A stretch of DNA of 42,927 nt from an uncultured Clostridium sp. (lineage in GTDB: Bacteria; Bacillota; Clostridia; Lachnospirales; Lachnospiraceae): NCBI GenBank assembly GCA_945917985.1, contig CAMEIH010000020.1, forward strand, positions 1 to 42,927, written 5' to 3'. The notes beneath the pieces are model-generated. The model worked only from the letters and a program-made list of their open reading frames with translations. It searched no databases and was not told the DNA's origin. Shown piece by piece: positions 29,158-42,927 of the stretch (its first letter is position 1; each line of letters starts with the position of its first letter). The position numbers and the translations under genes were made by a program.

Positions 29158-30387
29158 TTATAGAATGAGTTTTACAAACCGCTTCTTGCCAAGTTTAAGC
29201 ACATCTCCGTTTTTGACAGGTGTGTCCGGTGCACTTATTTTTACGCCGTTGAGAGAAACACCTCCCTGTGAAAGCAAACGTCGCAGTTCGCTGTTGCTGG
29301 ATATGATTCCGTCTTTTACGAGAAAAGGAGCAGCTTCCTGTAAAATGCTTTTTTCTGCAATTATATTTAGGACGGGAATATCCTGCGGGATCTCTTTTCT
29401 GGTAAATGCCTGGCTAAAGTATGTTTCTGCAGCCTCGGTTTCTTCCCGTGAGTGGTACAGAGCGGTTATGGTGCGAGCAAGCATGAGTTTATAATCTTTG
29501 GGATTTGCACCATTTCTTAAAGCTTCTTTCACTGCATCAAGCTCTTCGGGGAAAATATCTGTTGCAAGTTCAAAGTATCTGATGATCAGTGCATCCGGCA
29601 CCTCCATAACTTTTTTGAACATAACCTTTGCATCCTCCTGTACACCAATGTAGTTGCCAAGGCTCTTGCTCATCTTTTCCACACCGTCAAGTCCCTCCAG
29701 AATCGGCATAAACAAGGCGGCCTGAGGTTCCATACAGAAGTCCTTTTGCAGGGAGCGTCCCATCAGGATATTAAAGGTCTGATCGCTGCCTCCAAGCTCA
29801 ATGTCTGCCTGAATCGCAACGGAATCGTAAGCCTGCATCAGAGGATAAAAGAATTCATGCAGACCGATAGGGATGTTGTGAGTGTAACGGTTTTGAAAAT
29901 CATCGCGCTCCAGCATGCGCGCCACAGTAACGGTTGATGCTATTTTCAGGATATCTTCCAGATTCAAAAGCTCCAGCCACTCACCGTTGTAGCGCACCTG
30001 TGTCTTCTCGCGGTCAAGTATTTTAAAAATCTGCTCTTGGTAGGTTTGGGCATTGAGCAGGACTTCGCGGTTGGTGAGAGCTTTTCTGCCTTTTGATTTA
30101 CCGGTGGGATCTCCGATCCGTCCTGTAAAATCACCGATAATAATGATGATCTGATGTCCCAGATCCTGCATTTGTTTTAGCTTGCGCAGAACAACTGCAT
30201 GACCGAGATGAATATCCGGCGCACTGGGATCCAGCCCCAGCTTCACGTTAAGCGGGTTTCCGGTCTTGATGGAACGAGCAAGTTTTACCCGTAACTCCTC
30301 CTCACCGATCAGTGCAGATGCACCTTTTAGGATAATCCTCATCTGCCTTTCCACTTCCTGTTTTACTGCTTTTTCATTGATTGCCAT
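29158..30387 (-). CDS. tyrS: Tyrosyl-tRNA synthetase
   Basis: The 409-residue class I enzyme charges tRNA-Tyr. It shows the HIGH-type motif (DIHLGH), the KMSKS loop (KMSKSLGN) and a C-terminal S4 RNA-binding domain (LRRLLSQGGVSLNG, then GDVLKLGKKRF). The HLGH variant suggests the TyrZ-like branch. The start is ATG at 30387, eight bases after AAGGAGG; an in-frame extension of 11 codons upstream has no ribosome site. Its transcript begins with a T-box leader. Confidence 0.95.
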   Translation of the reverse strand: MAINEKAVKQEVERQMRIILKGASALIGEEELRVKLARSIKTGNPLNVKLGLDPSAPDIHLGHAVVLRKLKQMQDLGHQIIIIIGDFTGRIGDPTGKSKGRKALTNREVLLNAQTYQEQIFKILDREKTQVRYNGEWLELLNLEDILKIASTVTVARMLERDDFQNRYTHNIPIGLHEFFYPLMQAYDSVAIQADIELGGSDQTFNILMGRSLQKDFCMEPQAALFMPILEGLDGVEKMSKSLGNYIGVQEDAKVMFKKVMEVPDALIIRYFELATDIFPEELDAVKEALRNGANPKDYKLMLARTITALYHSREETEAAETYFSQAFTRKEIPQDIPVLNIIAEKSILQEAAPFLVKDGIISSNSELRRLLSQGGVSLNGVKISAPDTPVKNGDVLKLGKKRFVKLIL

Positions 30388-30464
30388 TTGATTTTCCTCC
30401 TTATATTTTTGATATGGCAACGATCAGCAAGACAACCAATGAAATCAAATAAATAGGGGCTGTA

Positions 30465-30501
30465 ATAAAAAAGGCTTCCGTCCTTCAATAGGACGAAAGC
30501 C
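30465..30501 (-). terminator. T-box leader terminator upstream of tyrS
   Basis: An 11-bp stem (GGCTTTCGTCC, loop TATTGAA, GGACGGAAGCC, with one G-T pair) followed by a T-run on the minus strand. It competes with the antiterminator formed by the T-box sequence just upstream. Confidence 0.9.
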
Positions 30502-30771
30502 ATACTTTCGTGTTACCACCTAATGTTTATAAACAGCTCACGCTGTTTACCTCTTCGAGTACGCCCGGTTAAAGGGATATACTCTAGCACGTTAACGGGT
30601 GCAGGAACCGTCGCAGCCTACTGGACATAGGTCATTCGGTGCGAAGCTCAAAGATGTATTCACATAAAGCTTCCCATGCGCCTCTCATCAACCGGCAGCT
30701 TTCTGTATGTTTCCCTCTATGCTACTTCTTCTTATCATTGCTTTTCTTAACTGATCGTTTGTGTGAAATTA
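30502..30771 (-). promoter_or_regulatory. Tyrosine T-box riboswitch leader
   Basis: Read on the minus strand, the leader contains an AGTA-type motif (GAAGTAGCA), GGTTGATGAGAGG, a specifier region GTGAATACATC, and the conserved T-box AGGTGGTAACACG at 30510-30522, followed by the terminator. The specifier codon is best read as UAC (complement of 30656-30658), tyrosine, which matches tyrS. Uncharged tRNA-Tyr would bind and prevent termination. Confidence 0.92.
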
Positions 30772-33720: not shown

Positions 33721-34067
33721 ATTTATCTATTGTAAAAAATATGTGGTTGAATAGTGCAGATAATCTTTCAATAGATGAATAAACTGTATTCCTTGAAAGT
33801 GCCTGACACGGAACAGATATAATTGGCAGGAAGGATAAGTGATGACGCGTTTTATTTTTTTATATGTCGCTGCTTCGTAGCAGAAGGAAAAATACTAAAC
33901 TAAATTTTTCCTTTAAAAGGAACCTGACAGATTCCAGTTTTTGAAACTGGAGAAATCGGGATTTAAATGGATGAACAATTACCTTATTCTTTATATGAAC
34001 TTGAATGTAACCATTGAATTTACAACAAAATTCTGATATGATAATTGATGAAATGGAGGTGCTTGCA
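33721..34067. other. Non-coding AT-rich gap before the Rrf2 gene
   Basis: No credible gene is seen. It contains short hairpins (CTGCT-TCGT-AGCAG near 33870 and CCAGTTT-TTG-AAACTGG at 33934-33950), a 16-codon frame at 33967 that ends at once, and a plausible Rrf2 promoter (TTGAAT near 34015 with TATGAT downstream). It may hold the debris of a lost gene, but no family can be named. Confidence 0.5.
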
Positions 34068-34505
34068 ATGCAGATATCCAGTAGGTTTACGATGGCAATC
34101 CATATGTTTGCCTGCATAGATATATTTACGGAACAGAAAATGACCAGTGATTTTATGGCTGGAAGTATTGGAACAAATCCGGTTATCATCAGAAAGCTGT
34201 TGCAGCAGTTGAAGGCGGCAGGACTGATAGAGGTTTCAAGAGGAACCGGAGGTGTAGTAATAACAAAACCTTTAGAAGAAATTACATTTTTGGATATATA
34301 CAGAGCAGTGGAGTGCACACCGGATGAGGCATTATTTCATTTTCATGAGAATCCGAATCAGAAGTGTCCGGTTGGAAGAAATATTCATCATGTTCTGGAT
34401 GATAAGCTTGCAAGAGTACAGGAGGCAATGGAGAGAGAACTTGCCTCTATAACGCTGGCTGATGTAAAAAAAGATACAGAAGTATGGATTGCGAAGGAAC
34501 AGTGA
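34068..34505 (+). CDS. Rrf2 family transcriptional regulator
   Basis: This 145-residue winged-helix protein starts MQISSRFTMAIHMF, the usual Rrf2 opening, has the HTH at about residues 22-60 (SDFMAGSIGTNPVIIRKLL) and a wing with RGTGGVVI. The iron-sulfur members have three cysteines near residue 90-110; here only one is seen in QKCPVGRNIHHVLDD, as in YwnA-type proteins, so it may sense redox or small molecules through that cysteine and not through a cluster. ATG 34068 follows GGAGGT by seven bases. The next gene's promoter has repeated TGTAAT dyads that this protein could bind. Confidence 0.87.
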   Translation: MQISSRFTMAIHMFACIDIFTEQKMTSDFMAGSIGTNPVIIRKLLQQLKAAGLIEVSRGTGGVVITKPLEEITFLDIYRAVECTPDEALFHFHENPNQKCPVGRNIHHVLDDKLARVQEAMERELASITLADVKKDTEVWIAKEQ

Positions 34506-34580: not shown

Positions 34581-34649
34581 ATGTAACTATTGACATTACA
34601 TCAAAGAAATGATAAAGTACAACTACAAGATGTAATCAAAATGATTACA
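34581..34649 (+). promoter_or_regulatory. Promoter with TGTAAT dyad operators before the flavin-fold gene
   Basis: TTGACA (34590-34595) and TAAAGT (34613-34618), 17 bases apart, form the promoter. ATGTAA/TTACAT (34581-34586, 34596-34601) flank the -35, and a perfect dyad TGTAATCA-AAA-TGATTACA lies at 34631-34649 after the start. The likely binder is the Rrf2 protein encoded just upstream; this is inference. Confidence 0.7.
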
Positions 34650-35090: not shown

Positions 35091-35123
35091 TCTGCCCAGT
35101 GGTGATTTTCATTACTGGGCAGA
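35091..35123 (+). terminator. Hairpin after the flavin-fold gene, weak terminator or attenuator
   Basis: A perfect 10-bp stem (TCTGCCCAGT, 13-base loop, ACTGGGCAGA) is followed by only three T's. It may end transcription partly, leaving read-through into the sirtuin gene 43 bases downstream. Confidence 0.6.
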
Positions 35124-35165: not shown

Positions 35166-36092
35166 ATGAAAATTCGGAAAGGACACGTGGACTGGCAGAG
35201 GTTTTTATGCGGAATTCCAGCCAGGGACTATATTTTTCAAGATGAATTATATGAAGTGCAGATTCAAAGAGCAAAAGATATGATAAGAAAAGCTGATGCT
35301 ATAATCATAGGTGCCGGGGCAGGTGCTTCCACTGCAGCAGGTATTTGTTATGGTGGTAAGCGCTTTACGGATAATTTTGCAGAATTTATAGATAAGTATG
35401 GAAAGCAGTATATGACAGATATGTACGCTGCAGGTTTTTACCCGTTTCCTACAGAGGAAGCCAAGTGGGGTTACTGGTCAAAGCATGCGTTGATGAATCG
35501 TTTTATTCCGCCTGCACTTCCCATGTATCTTGAGCTTTTTGATATCGTGAAGGAAAAAGAGTACTTCGTTCTTACAACCAATGTAGACCATCAATTCTGG
35601 AAAGCAGGATTTGATTCAGATAGAATATTTGCCACCCAGGGAGATTATGGTAAAATTCAGTGTGAACGGGGATGTCATCAGAAAACTTATGATGCAGAGG
35701 AGTTGTTCAGGAAGATGGATGCTTCCAGAAGAAACTGTCTGATTCCCACAGAACTGGTTCCGGAGTGTCCTGTATGTGGCGGAAAGATGACAATGCATCT
35801 TAGGTGTGATAACTACTTTGTAGAAGATGAAAGCTGGCTTGCTGCAGCTGATCGGTATGCTGATTTTCTTGAGAAGTGTAAAGACAAAAAAGTAGTATTA
35901 CTGGAACTTGGAGTTGGATTTAATACACCAATCATTATTCGGTTTCCATTTGAAAAACTGGTCAGAGAAAATGAAGGCTACAGCCTGATCAGGCTTAATA
36001 TGGATGATGCGGTTGTACCTGAAAGCTTTGGCGATAGAGCTATAGGTATTGGCGGAGATATGGCCAAGGCAATCTCTGATTTGAAGAGGTAA
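35166..36092 (+). CDS. Class M sirtuin (SirTM), protein ADP-ribosyltransferase
   Basis: A 308-residue Sir2-fold protein with the NAD-binding GAGAGASTAAG, N139 and D141 in TTNVDHQ, and four zinc cysteines at 166, 170, 201 and 204. In ordinary sirtuins a catalytic histidine follows at the ELHG position; here it is glutamine (Q158 in ATQGDYG), which is the hallmark of class M sirtuins, known to transfer ADP-ribose to a lipoylated carrier protein instead of deacetylating. It is directly followed by a macrodomain gene, as in other SirTM operons. The GcvH-like carrier and lipoate ligase genes usually found beside it are absent in this window. Confidence 0.88.
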   Translation: MKIRKGHVDWQRFLCGIPARDYIFQDELYEVQIQRAKDMIRKADAIIIGAGAGASTAAGICYGGKRFTDNFAEFIDKYGKQYMTDMYAAGFYPFPTEEAKWGYWSKHALMNRFIPPALPMYLELFDIVKEKEYFVLTTNVDHQFWKAGFDSDRIFATQGDYGKIQCERGCHQKTYDAEELFRKMDASRRNCLIPTELVPECPVCGGKMTMHLRCDNYFVEDESWLAAADRYADFLEKCKDKKVVLLELGVGFNTPIIIRFPFEKLVRENEGYSLIRLNMDDAVVPESFGDRAIGIGGDMAKAISDLKR

Positions 36093-36094
36093 GT

Positions 36095-36880
36095 ATGATG
36101 AATCAGGACGAAAGAAGATTATTTTTGATAGAATATCTCATGAAGGAAGATATACGATTGCGTAAGTTGCAGATTCCAAAGGATGTGCAGGGGCAGCGGG
36201 ATTTACTGCGTTCCCTTATGAATGTAAGAATGCCAAGACCTATAGATGATGAATTCTTGGTGGTGCAGGATGAATACCTGCAACAGAGAAATATTGAGCG
36301 AGGCATAACAGATGCCTGTGATTTGCAACCTGTAGCTTCAGATGAGCGTTTGTTTATCTGGCAGGGGGATATCACAACTTTAAAATGTGATGCAATCGTA
36401 AATGCCTGCAATAGCCAGATGCTAGGATGTTTTTCACCAATGCATTCCTGTATTGACAATTTTATTCATACCTATGCAGGAGTTCAGCTTAGACTGAAAA
36501 TGAATGAGATTATGACAAAACAGGGACATGAGGAACCTGCCGGGCGGGCAAAAATAACGAGAGGATACAATCTCCCGGCAAAGTTCATTCTACATACGGT
36601 GGGACCGATTATTCAGTGTGAAGTGACCGAAGAGAATGAAAAAATGCTGACAAGTTGTTATAGAGAATGCTTAAAACTTGCAGCTGAAAACAGAGCAGAG
36701 TCGATTGCATTTTGCTGTTTGTCTACTGGTGTTTTTAGGTTTCCGCAGCAAAGAGCCGCGGAGATTGCAGTAAAGACGGTAAAGGACTTTCTGATAACAG
36801 ATACAGGAATAAAGCAGGTTATTTTTAATGTGTTTAAGGATGAAGATTTGGAAATATACAGTAGTATATTAGGAATATGA
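36095..36880 (+). CDS. Zinc-containing macrodomain protein, protein-ADP-ribose hydrolase
   Basis: The 261-residue protein has an N-terminal helical part (residues 1-80) and a macrodomain with AIVNACNSQMLGCF, the SPMHSCIDN segment that supplies the zinc-binding cysteine/histidine set of Zn-macrodomains, and GPIIQC, CLSTGVFRFP in the later strands. These enzymes remove the ADP-ribose added by SirTM. Its ATG lies two bases after the sirtuin stop (ATGATG repeat), so the writer and the eraser are translationally coupled. Confidence 0.9.
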   Translation: MMNQDERRLFLIEYLMKEDIRLRKLQIPKDVQGQRDLLRSLMNVRMPRPIDDEFLVVQDEYLQQRNIERGITDACDLQPVASDERLFIWQGDITTLKCDAIVNACNSQMLGCFSPMHSCIDNFIHTYAGVQLRLKMNEIMTKQGHEEPAGRAKITRGYNLPAKFILHTVGPIIQCEVTEENEKMLTSCYRECLKLAAENRAESIAFCCLSTGVFRFPQQRAAEIAVKTVKDFLITDTGIKQVIFNVFKDEDLEIYSSILGI

Positions 36881-37010: not shown

Positions 37011-37103
37011 TCAGATAACTGCGCAACTGGCGGAAGACGGGTGACCGTTGTGAGAGTACTCACAGGGAGCGTGGTTTTGATGAGAATGCCGACCGCCTGG
37101 GCG
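37011..37103 (+). promoter_or_regulatory. ZTP (pfl) riboswitch aptamer
   Basis: The segment has the conserved ZTP features in order: CGCAACTGGCGG, GGGTGACCG, a short hairpin TGTGAGAGTACTCACA, GGGAGCG, and CCGCCTGGGC at 37093-37102. The aptamer senses ZTP/ZMP, the purine intermediate that builds up when 10-formyl-tetrahydrofolate is short. It sits before the two last enzymes of purine synthesis, exactly where ZMP is consumed. Confidence 0.93.
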
Positions 37104-37137
37104 AACGCTTTTTAAGTGTGCCGCTCAGGCGGTTTTT
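37093..37137 (+). terminator. ZTP riboswitch expression-platform terminator
   Basis: CCGCCTGGGC (37093-37102) can pair with GCTCAGGCGG (37123-37132), followed by five T's. The left arm is also part of the aptamer, so ligand binding and termination exclude each other. Confidence 0.92.
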
Positions 37138-37167: not shown

Positions 37168-37881
37168 ATGAAGATGTTATCACTGGAAGAAGAACTGAAG
37201 AGCAATGCTTATCCCGGCAGAGGAATCGTGATCGGCAGATCTGCAAACGGAAAATATGCGGTGACAGCCTATTTTATTATGGGCAGAAGCTCTAACAGCA
37301 GAAACCGTGTATTTGTGGAAGAGGGACAGGGAATCAGAACCCAGGCGTTTGACCCTTCCAAGCTGGAGGATCCGAGCCTTATCATCTATGCACCGGTAAG
37401 AGTTCTTGGCAACAAGACCATCGTAACAAACGGTGACCAGACGGACACCATTTATGAGGGTATGGATAAGCAGCTTACCTTTGAGCAGTCCTTAAGATGC
37501 AGAGAGTTTGAGCCGGACGGCCCCAACTATACACCTCGTATTTCCGGAATCATGCATATCGAGAACGGCGGTTACAACTATGCCATGTCTATTTTAAAGA
37601 GCAATAACGGAAGTCCCGACAGTTGCAACAGATATACCTTTGCCTATGAGAATCCGGCTGCAGGGGAGGGCCATTTCATTCATACCTATATGCATGACGG
37701 CAATCCGCTTCCAAGCTTTGAGGGAGAACCCAAGCTGGTGTCGATTCCTGATGATATGGATGCGTTCACGGACATGCTTTGGAACAGCTTGAATGAGGAG
37801 AATAAGGTTTCTCTCTTTGTGAGATATATTGATATTGCAACAGGCGAATATACGAGCAAAATTGTAAACAAGAATAACTGA
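37168..37881 (+). CDS. IMP cyclohydrolase (PurO-like, stand-alone)
   Basis: A 237-residue enzyme of the IMP_cyclohyd (PurO) family, with PGRGIVIG near the N terminus, MGRSSNSRNRVF, and GPNYTPRISG. It closes the ring of FAICAR to IMP, the last step of purine synthesis, done in most bacteria by the N-terminal domain of PurH. AGGAGGT precedes the ATG. It is 11 bases ahead of the AICAR transformylase gene and under the ZTP riboswitch. Confidence 0.9.
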   Translation: MKMLSLEEELKSNAYPGRGIVIGRSANGKYAVTAYFIMGRSSNSRNRVFVEEGQGIRTQAFDPSKLEDPSLIIYAPVRVLGNKTIVTNGDQTDTIYEGMDKQLTFEQSLRCREFEPDGPNYTPRISGIMHIENGGYNYAMSILKSNNGSPDSCNRYTFAYENPAAGEGHFIHTYMHDGNPLPSFEGEPKLVSIPDDMDAFTDMLWNSLNEENKVSLFVRYIDIATGEYTSKIVNKNN

Positions 37882-37892
37882 GGAGAAAAAAG

Positions 37893-39071
37893 ATGAACGA
37901 GATCGAATTAAAATACGGATGCAACCCCAATCAGAAGCCTTCCCGGATTTTTATGGAGGATGGCAGTGAACTTCCCGTTACTGTGCTGAACGGGAAACCC
38001 GGCTATATCAACTTTTTGGATGCCTTTAACGGCTGGCAGCTTGTAAAGGAACTGAAGAAAGCCACAGGACTTCCTGCGGCTACTTCCTTTAAGCACGTAT
38101 CGCCTGCCGGTGCGGCAGTAGGTCTTCCTTTATCGGAAACCCTCGCAAAGATCTACTGGGTGGATGATCTCGGAGAGCTCTCACCCCTTGCCTGTGCCTA
38201 TGCAAGAGCAAGAGGTGCGGACAGAATGAGTTCCTTTGGTGATTTTATTGCACTGTCTGACGTTTGTGATGCAGATACCGCTCGCCTCATCAAGAGAGAA
38301 GTTTCCGACGGTGTGATCGCACCCGGCTATACCGAGGAAGCCCTTGAAATGTTAAAAGCCAAGAAAAAAGGCAATTACAATGTGATCCAGATTGATGAAT
38401 CCTATGTGCCGGCGCCCGTAGAGAGAAAGCAGGTGTACGGAATCACCTTTGAGCAGGGAAGAAACGAACTGAACATTGATGCAGATCTTTTGTCCAATAT
38501 TGTGACAAAGAACAAAGATATCCCGGAAAGTGCCGTTATTGATATGAAGATTGCACTGATCACGTTGAAATATACCCAGTCCAACTCCGTATGCTATGTG
38601 AAGGACGGACAGGCAATCGGTATCGGTGCAGGTCAGCAGTCCAGAATCCACTGCACGAGACTGGCAGGACAGAAAGCGGACAACTGGTTCCTGCGTCAGT
38701 CCCCTCAGGTCATGAATCTTCAGTTTGTGGACGGACTTGGCAGAGCCGACAGAGACAATGCCATTGACGTTTACATGGGAGAGGAATGCATGGATGTACT
38801 TGCTGATGGCGCATGGGAGAGAGTATTTAAGGTAAAACCCCCTATATTTACAAGAGAAGAAAAGAGAGCATGGCTTGACAGGATGCAGGATGTGACGGTG
38901 GGCTCCGATGCCTTCTTCCCCTTCTCCGACAATGTGGAGCGCGCCCATAAGAGCGGTGTGAAGTATATCGCACAGCCCGGCGGTTCCGTGAGAGATGATG
39001 CCGTGATCGAATGCTGTGACAAATACGGTATGGCAATGGTGTTTACCGGAATCAGACTGTTCCATCACTAA
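37893..39071 (+). CDS. AICAR transformylase, stand-alone (PurH C-terminal type)
   Basis: The 392-residue protein matches the formyltransferase half of PurH: KYGCNPNQKPSR at the start, FKHVSPAGAAVG (catalytic lysine and histidine), TNSVCYV-type and GQQSRIHCTRLA, and QPGGSVRDD near the end. It formylates AICAR (ZMP) with 10-formyl-tetrahydrofolate. With PurO upstream it replaces bifunctional PurH. Its substrate ZMP is the signal for the upstream riboswitch, which closes the feedback loop. Confidence 0.93.
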   Translation: MNEIELKYGCNPNQKPSRIFMEDGSELPVTVLNGKPGYINFLDAFNGWQLVKELKKATGLPAATSFKHVSPAGAAVGLPLSETLAKIYWVDDLGELSPLACAYARARGADRMSSFGDFIALSDVCDADTARLIKREVSDGVIAPGYTEEALEMLKAKKKGNYNVIQIDESYVPAPVERKQVYGITFEQGRNELNIDADLLSNIVTKNKDIPESAVIDMKIALITLKYTQSNSVCYVKDGQAIGIGAGQQSRIHCTRLAGQKADNWFLRQSPQVMNLQFVDGLGRADRDNAIDVYMGEECMDVLADGAWERVFKVKPPIFTREEKRAWLDRMQDVTVGSDAFFPFSDNVERAHKSGVKYIAQPGGSVRDDAVIECCDKYGMAMVFTGIRLFHH

Positions 39072-42877: not shown

Positions 42878-42927
42878 AGATCGGAAGAGCGTCGTGTAGG
42901 GAAAGAGTGTAGATCTCGGTGGTCGCC
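42878..42927. other. Illumina TruSeq adapter sequence at contig end
   Basis: The last 50 bases begin AGATCGGAAGAGCGTCGTGT and continue through the reverse complement of the Illumina universal adapter. It is read-through from a library insert, not genomic DNA. Translated, it gives the known contaminant peptide ending [10 protein letters not shown]. Confidence 0.98.

Follow-up and report, generated by a model that had tools for sequence, protein, structure and literature searches.

A stand-alone pair of SirTM sirtuin and Zn-macrodomain genes in an uncultured Clostridium sp.: a candidate lipoate-independent ADP-ribosylation switch beside an Rrf2 regulator and a flavin-fold gene

In bacteria, the genes for the class M sirtuin SirTM and its zinc-containing macrodomain partner (Zn-Macro) occur either as independent pairs or within extended operons, and the Lachnospiraceae are listed among the carriers (Rack 2015, PMC4518038); occurrence of the pair on its own is also described in a later paper (Ariza 2024, PMC11490716). 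The extended operons, which hold the lipoyl carrier GcvH-L and the ligase LplA2, also include the genes of two oxidoreductases of flavin type, OYE and LLM (Rack 2015, PMC4518038). According to the parts of the later paper on which we draw, SirTM has one known target, GcvH-L; what is modified in other SirTM/Zn-Macro systems is elusive, and the stand-alone Zn-Macro MorMacro is unable to demodify GcvH-L (Ariza 2024, PMC11490716). The bond of Cys-ADP-ribose is among those that Zn-Macros cleave. Class features of SpySirTM are N118 and Q137, the motif GVGx[NT]TP, Arg192 and Asn258 (Ariza 2024, PMC11490716; Rack 2015, PMC4518038). Among the Rrf2-type regulators, HypR of Staphylococcus aureus is inactivated via an intersubunit disulfide between Cys33 and Cys99' (PMC10715087, PMC6299908). 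Here we describe a SirTM/Zn-Macro gene pair located behind an Rrf2 regulator gene and a gene for a flavin mononucleotide (FMN) split-barrel protein, on a stretch of 42,927 nucleotides (the window) from an uncultured Clostridium sp. of the Lachnospiraceae (assembly GCA_945917985.1, contig CAMEIH010000020.1). We consider it rather probable that this locus encodes a stand-alone, lipoate-independent and reversible ADP-ribosylation switch which, together with an FMN-fold protein, would stand under thiol-redox control by the Rrf2 protein.

An earlier reading of the window from its letters alone (the sequence-only reading) had called a SirTM gene with N139 and Q158 exactly 19 residues apart and, two bases behind it, a Zn-macrodomain gene, and both calls proved exact, position, spacing and gap included. 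SirTM matches PDB 5a3a (entry title 'SIR2 family protein', E 1.9e-55, phmmer), which we take to be the Streptococcus pyogenes SirTM, also matches PDB chain 8rsn, a 599-aa macrodomain-sirtuin, and scores only marginally against Pfam SIR2 (25.2 bits, cut-off 24.0). Equivalents of N139 and Q158 are present in 106 of the 107 SirTMs of the family sample introduced below, the remaining one having a gap; GVGFNTP fits the class motif, and R213 and N278 are present, their presumed equivalence to Arg192 and Asn258 of SpySirTM following from the PDB alignment. SirTM is therefore assigned, by its glutamine in place of histidine, upstream asparagine and class motif, to the class M sirtuins. The macrodomain exceeds the cut-off of the NCBIfam model NF003163 for protein-ADP-ribose hydrolases (356 bits, cut-off 272), matches PDB 8rsi at E 4.3e-84 and, carrying the zinc motif C112-x4-H117-x-C119 in the catalytic loop of what by sequence is a MacroD-type fold, is classed as a Zn-macrodomain. 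By family membership SirTM would be a transferase and the macrodomain a hydrolase, and the two gene products most likely place ADP-ribose on some protein and take it off again.

Two further observations concern these protein families. The structural zinc cysteines of SirTM lie at 166, 170, 201 and 204, and 20 of the 107 family SirTMs retain the catalytic positions and lack three of the four (C166, C170 and C204), namely those of loci L093, L094, L095, L108, L109, L111, L114, L115, L116, L135, L147, L154, L162, L164, L166, L169 and L171-L174. A second macrodomain in the window's genome (G000:C22:25733-26239) scores 158 bits to NF003163, below the cut-off, and covers the macro part only.

The whole genome (2.9 Mb, 111 contigs, 88.5% complete), window included, was searched for the lipoyl partners. 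No match was obtained with the GCV_H profile, nor with LplA-B_cat for lipoate ligase, and each of these searches was positive in 13 of 14 control genomes. Biotin_lipoyl (PF00364) gave five matches, and the only one over the cut-off was a carrier of 123 aa on contig C54 that has EAMKM, a motif of biotin type, and is encoded in an apparent sodium-pump decarboxylase operon; no lipoyl-type carrier exceeded the cut-off. The two marks of the extended operon, a GcvH-like carrier and LplA2, are both absent from the assembly, which extends to the genome what the sequence-only reading had seen nearby. Adjacent SirTM and Zn-Macro genes without lipoyl genes constitute a stand-alone pair, and pairs lacking carrier and ligase have been described before. 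That reading had taken the described SirTM operons to hold GcvH-L and LplA2, which applies to the extended ones, stand-alone pairs having been published in 2015 and 2024; its view that the missing partners make the pair unusual has to be given up, since independent pairs, those of Lachnospiraceae included, are already listed in the part of Rack 2015 (PMC4518038) used here.

Across the family, SirTM tracks the Zn-macrodomain but not lipoylation, as shown by a sample of 250 Lachnospiraceae genomes, each from a different genus. A strong SirTM was counted at E <= 1e-65, a threshold chosen after viewing the distribution, which retained 107 of the 139 genomes with a match at 1e-20 and dropped seven with tandem-type sirtuins only and 25 with weaker matches. 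Zn-Macro was over the cut-off in 105 genomes and lipoate ligase was found in 48, while GcvH, counted at E < 1e-20, was found in 40; GCV_H itself matched 116 genomes at 1e-3 and 89 over the Pfam cut-off, most of the latter matches being short and presumably biotin carriers. SirTM and Zn-Macro occurred together in 97 genomes, SirTM only in 10, Zn-Macro only in 8 and neither in 135 (odds ratio 164), and several of the 10 hold a fragment or below-cut-off Zn-Macro match, including genome G128 in which the two are fused. For SirTM and ligase the corresponding numbers were 21, 86, 27 and 116 (odds ratio 1.05, p = 1) and for SirTM and GcvH 17, 90, 23 and 120 (odds ratio 0.99, p = 1). Ligase and GcvH themselves coincided in 37 genomes (odds ratio 223), so the test is able to show a link where one exists. 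Neither ligase nor GcvH was present in 85 of the 107 SirTM genomes, compared to 114 of the 143 without SirTM; with the loosest GCV_H count the former number is 53 of 107. Other thresholds (114 or 139 SirTM genomes, all 116 GCV_H genomes) likewise gave no association, with odds ratios from 0.84 to 1.09. In a phylum sample of 329 genomes, SirTM was found at 1e-40 in 15, of which 12 were kept (G573, one of the three dropped, has both ligase and GcvH); ligase was present in 2 of these 12, which are few, versus 246 of the 317 others, and GcvH in 2 of 12 versus 227 of 317. Family and phylum statistics both ignore kinship among genomes. Genome G178, in which ligase and GcvH genes lie together, was considered as a carrier of an extended operon and rejected: the one SirTM-like match in it spans 133 positions and lies far away (C1:2249792-2250190), and the stretch around the ligase and GcvH genes (L107) holds no SirTM.

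These counts bear on the possibility that a lipoyl carrier and its ligase are encoded elsewhere and were missed in the incomplete, fragmented assembly, the locus then being a GcvH-L switch in split form. That 21 of the SirTM-bearing family genomes do have a ligase and 17 a GcvH would agree with it, and most ligase/SirTM pairs lie on different contigs, so that draft assemblies leave some room; yet all three profiles failed to find a lipoyl-type partner in the window's genome, the ligase- and GcvH-free share is similar with and without SirTM, and none of the 21 genomes has a listed ligase within 100 kb (<=100 kb) of a listed SirTM on one contig. We hold this explanation to be highly improbable. 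Because no lipoyl families were found genome-wide and SirTM is independent of ligase and GcvH in the family, the evidence favours a target independent of a lipoyl carrier over a carrier encoded elsewhere. Of the two options left by the sequence-only reading, a distant carrier or another protein as target, it is thus the second that is favoured; a GcvH-L/LplA2 operon elsewhere in the genome with matching co-occurrence, which it had named as counter-evidence, was not found in the 88.5%-complete assembly, nor was any association among the 250 family genomes.

Another swinging-arm carrier with a GcvH-L-like fold, for example the biotin carrier of the sodium-pump decarboxylase, might be modified instead. 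It is the sole over-cut-off carrier domain in the genome, and lipoyl and biotinyl domains belong to one Pfam family (PF00364). This proposal nevertheless appears unlikely, as the carrier is encoded on another contig and anaerobes commonly have biotin carriers whether or not they have SirTM. Debiotinylation of the biotin carboxyl carrier protein (BCCP) was tested in Rack 2015 (PMC4518038), and in the part of that paper used here we found no test of BCCP ADP-ribosylation.

With respect to regulation, the Rrf2 gene and the flavin-fold gene that the sequence-only reading had placed upstream of SirTM are both confirmed by Pfam, and the redox signal it had suggested from them is likely. As the listed TTG start of rrf2 at 34014 falls within the promoter, the ATG at 34068 is the likelier start. 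The nearest solved structures to the Rrf2 protein are PDB 1ylf (2.3e-36) and YwnA, 1xd7 (1.3e-28), and, numbered from this ATG, Cys16 is retained in 21 and Cys100 in all 24 of 24 homologues. By analogy with HypR, redox sensing by this protein is plausible, and not firmer because the match to the HypR model is weak. The split-barrel protein matches PDB 2ig6 of the NimC/NimA family at E 5.1e-21.

A 19-bp palindrome, TGTAAYNATTGANWTTACA, is present in the window in two exact copies, one before each of the two upstream genes, and in a third copy with two mismatches; these three matches with <=2 mismatches compare to 0.03 expected, a control run on the window only. The first copy overlaps the rrf2 promoter, with its -35-like TTGAAT at 34014 and a -10-like TATGAT up to 34042, and the second encloses the -35 of a promoter-like site at 34590-34618 that scores 10/12, one of the two best in the region; promoter-like sites as such are not rarer in shuffles (13 found, 10.2 expected). 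Among 42 related loci, which overlap in part with the 107 family loci, 28 carry an exact palindrome in the 2.5 kb upstream, on the strand of SirTM, and all 46 exact copies are on this strand with none on the other. Window and relatives together supplied the operator pattern, so that the scores of relatives partly reflect descent. The palindrome may also resemble the operator of HypR, a likeness on which we do not build. Over the 107 loci the exact palindrome was present in 12 of the 23 with Rrf2, in none of the 28 with an HxlR regulator and in four others (p = 6e-7 for Rrf2), and of the remaining 11 Rrf2 loci, 10 have a copy with <=2 mismatches. Since the exact palindromes enclose -35 boxes and associate with Rrf2 loci, strong circumstantial evidence points to the Rrf2 protein as controlling two units, rrf2 itself and the predicted split-barrel–SirTM–macrodomain unit, by covering their promoters. 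The sequence-only reading was right about the extent of the pair itself, the functional unit beginning further upstream, at about 34006 (Table 1).

Table 1. Features of the locus and of its downstream boundary, with positions in the window
Feature	Position	Strand	Evidence or remarks
Predicted Rrf2 operator 1, TGTAACCATTGAATTTACA	34006..34024	+	exact pattern match; overlaps -35 of rrf2 promoter
Rrf2-family regulator, HypR/YwnA-like	34068..34505	+	Pfam Rrf2, E 5.2e-32
Predicted Rrf2 operator 2, TGTAACTATTGACATTACA	34582..34600	+	exact pattern match; -35 TTGACA inside
Third inverted repeat in leader, TGTAATCAAAATGATTACA	34631..34649	.	8-bp perfect arms; two mismatches to operator pattern
PNPOx/NimA-type FMN split-barrel protein, 131 aa	34675..35070	+	Pfam PNPOx_N, E 1.9e-12
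Hairpin between split-barrel gene and SirTM	35092..35122	+	without T run; not called terminator
Class M sirtuin SirTM, 308 aa	35166..36092	+	N139, Q158, R213, GVGFNTP 249-255, N278
Zn-macrodomain (protein-ADP-ribose hydrolase family), 261 aa	36095..36880	+	NF003163, PDB 8rsi, zinc motif
ZMP/ZTP riboswitch before purine operon	37013..37109	+	Rfam RF01750, 52.0 bits, gathering score 39

The comparison of gene order in relatives, which the sequence-only reading had proposed, was carried out by reading the SirTM loci of all 107 genomes (L078-L097, L108-L193 and the window), and macrodomain, flavin-type and regulator genes recur beside SirTM. The near zone was set at 3.5 kb and compared with an outer zone of much the same size (629 kb versus 680 kb); the pair is no more than 1.5 kb from the end of the stretch in 13 of the 107 loci, and the neighbour probes derive from the window and relatives, whose scores thus partly reflect descent. 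A same-strand macrodomain was present within 3.5 kb in 85 loci. The FMN split-barrel fold is the commonest neighbour after it, found near in 44 loci and only in the outer zone in one; 44 is the union of two probes, for the 131-aa PNPOx type and for a type that bears a fused two-cluster ferredoxin domain, and is the safer number since their hits can overlap. Rrf2 was near in 23 loci and only in the outer zone in one. Probe-free clustering, with clusters named from one representative each, added an HxlR regulator near 28 loci, always on the opposite strand (outer zone: 9 loci), a nitroreductase and an NAD(P)-binding NmrA-like protein at 12 loci each, and a radical SAM (S-adenosylmethionine) protein at 15. 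Rrf2 and HxlR were never found together at one locus (0/107), and in 74 of the 107 loci one or more flavin-type, NmrA-like or regulator genes stand within 3.5 kb. The loci of Coprococcus comes, Ruminococcus torques and C. catus run from Rrf2 through PNPOx, an energy-coupling factor (ECF) transporter component and split-barrel-ferredoxin to SirTM and macrodomain, an arrangement of which the window holds a shorter version.

This neighbourhood also weighs on the idea that SirTM is an NAD+-consuming toxin or defence protein with the macrodomain as its antidote, as in DarT/DarG or sirtuin phage defence. Writer and eraser genes are adjacent on one strand, and relatives hold tandem sirtuins and duplicated SirTMs, as such a system might; set against this, no PADLOC family matched any of the four proteins compared at E <= 0.001, the genes recurring beside SirTM encode enzymes of redox type and regulators, and the catalytic residues of SirTM match those of class M transferases, which makes a toxin or defence role very unlikely.

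Some loci deviate from the common arrangement. Tandem pairs or triples of SirTM-like genes without an adjoining macrodomain were seen in L098-L106 and L117 (e.g. L098:6935-9661, L101:7221-9066, L104:6792-8631), in which one copy retains N and Q (TTNQD...IQGDH) and another has a glutamate for Q/H (TSNG...EG); a divergent Rrf2-like gene adjoins several of these sets, and judged by their motifs the tandem sirtuins are possibly a further sirtuin subclass. SirTM and macrodomain are joined in a single frame in L022:6951-8705, SirTM first, and in L161 (G128:C97, a 583-aa frame), where the macrodomain comes first as in the fungal Mfs1.

Taken together, we propose the following course of events. A HypR-like Rrf2 repressor would occupy the palindromes over the -35 boxes of the rrf2 and split-barrel promoters; upon oxidant or electrophile stress its conserved cysteines would become oxidised and the repressor would be released, after which the split-barrel protein, SirTM and Zn-Macro would be produced together. 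SirTM would then ADP-ribosylate its target with NAD+ and Zn-Macro would take the tag off again. The target would not be a lipoyl carrier, the best candidates being flavin or redox proteins in the regulon and the split-barrel protein first among them. Binding of the Rrf2 protein to the palindromes, repression, redox release, co-transcription over the 95-bp gap and the target are steps which we infer.

Several points weigh against this proposal. The assembly is incomplete, the Rrf2 protein scores 49 bits against the NCBIfam HypR model, far under the cut-off of 180, and the gap separating the split-barrel gene from SirTM contains a 31-bp hairpin. Fourteen of the 42 relatives have no exact operator within 2.5 kb upstream, and the exact operator is present in little more than half of the Rrf2 loci (12/23) and also in the four loci without a near Rrf2 gene. 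In the closest relative by SirTM (L006, 88% identity) the genes mapped next to the locus include neither an Rrf2 nor a split-barrel gene, and 33 of the 107 SirTM loci have no flavin-type, NmrA-like, Rrf2 or HxlR gene within 3.5 kb. This last number would also agree with plain co-regulation, in which split-barrel protein, SirTM and Zn-Macro merely share a stress regulon and the modified protein is encoded at a distance and is unrelated to flavins. We regard that as a possible but less probable explanation, since several FMN-type families (two split-barrel types and a nitroreductase) recur at SirTM loci and the published extended operons, in the part of Rack 2015 (PMC4518038) used here, carry OYE and LLM as well.

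As regards the target of the proposed switch, the split-barrel protein is the most economical candidate because it is small, has an FMN fold, is probably expressed from the same promoter and has the fold that, the macrodomain aside, is most often found next to SirTM; its modification is a guess. It parallels the OYE and LLM of the lipoyl operons. A further indication comes from the Zn-Macro segment after HTVGP, near the active site, whose counterparts in S. aureus and S. pyogenes bear the arginines that face GcvH-L (Ariza 2024, PMC11490716). In the window's macrodomain the net charge of this segment is -3, compared to +3 and +1 in presumed SauMacro and SpyMacro, respectively, where charges were taken from the letters of the PDB alignment, chain identities were presumed and gap placement is uncertain; the segment could be cut out of 62 of 87 family macrodomains, and its mean charge in these is -0.3. 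As a weak test, the acidic segment would fit a target other than GcvH-L.

In one branch of the family, the cysteine-rich ACGX peptide accompanying an ACGX-type radical SAM protein is a further possible target. A radical SAM of this type and/or an ACG-repeat peptide frame was found at 16 of the 107 loci (15 radical SAM, 12 peptide), and the one radical SAM/SPASM representative tested scored 583 bits against TIGR04340 (cut-off 400). ACGX-repeat peptide frames were seen in L084, L087, L090, L091, L117, L121, L136, L138, L150, L151, L163, L172 and L028, and ACGX systems often accompany a nitroreductase. In the literature searched, no paper naming both ACGX and radical SAM was found. An ACGX system in the window's genome was considered and rejected: its six radical SAM matches reach at best 48 bits versus the cut-off of 400, so such a system cannot explain the window's locus.

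As a broader and clearly tentative proposal, for which the odds appear to us unfavourable, the SirTM/Zn-Macro loci of Lachnospiraceae might form a second, lipoate-free class of extended operons with flavin-redox proteins and Rrf2 or HxlR thiol control, in which SirTM would reversibly ADP-ribosylate the split-barrel protein and possibly, in a sub-branch, the ACGX peptide. If this were true, flavin redox control and not lipoate would be the common thread of SirTM systems. Strong SirTMs, present in 107 of the 250 family genomes, each from its own genus, do not track lipoylation. For the question of the targets the comparison supplies concrete candidates, namely the FMN split-barrel proteins, the nitroreductase and the ACGX peptide, along with predicted operators.

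Downstream of the pair, purine genes follow as the sequence-only reading had noted, and they are probably a separate unit because their own ZTP riboswitch precedes them; membership of the SirTM pair in the purine operon was rejected as this riboswitch separates the two. The region behind it (37168-39071) holds a PurO-like inosine monophosphate (IMP) cyclohydrolase, below the NCBIfam cut-off, beside a stand-alone 5-aminoimidazole-4-carboxamide ribonucleotide (AICAR) formyltransferase. Elsewhere in the window, a T-box leader (30486-30747, minus strand) lies before a gene named from its sequence as tyrosyl-tRNA synthetase-like (29158-30420). The contig end at 42878-42927 (AGATCGGAAGAGC...) resembles read-through into an Illumina adapter, and we presume these letters to be just that, so that the last open reading frame would be cut artificially.

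Compared to the systems described so far, in the parts of the cited papers on which we draw, the locus shares with the extended SirTM operon of S. pyogenes and S. aureus (PMC4518038) the class M sirtuin with glutamine for histidine, the adjacent Zn-macrodomain, flavin-type genes nearby (there OYE and LLM) and a link to oxidative stress; unlike that operon, it is without GcvH-L and LplA2, has other flavin-type genes and carries an Rrf2 gene with predicted operators in cis. With the fungal Mfs1 (PMC4518038, PMC11490716), whose macrodomain is unable to demodify GcvH-L, it has both domains and a stress link in common, whereas Mfs1 is one polypeptide with the macrodomain first and here two genes are present with SirTM first. 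The S. aureus HypR-MerA regulon (PMC10715087, PMC6299908) likewise has an Rrf2 gene adjoining a flavoprotein gene, and of the two conserved cysteines found here one lies in a CPVG motif and is plausibly equivalent to Cys99 of HypR; the Rrf2 gene precedes a split-barrel protein and SirTM/Zn-Macro here and a disulfide reductase there. In the literature searched on SirTM, macrodomain, Rrf2 and flavin, no description of a redox- or flavin-linked stand-alone variant was found. With the stand-alone pairs (PMC4518038, PMC11490716), of which kind the locus is a member, it shares the two genes without a carrier, the occurrence in Lachnospiraceae and the elusive targets, but the flavin-gene neighbourhood, regulator and operator found here are not described for these pairs in the parts of the two papers used. 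The new content of the locus is in the parts beyond the two genes, namely the operator and the regulator.

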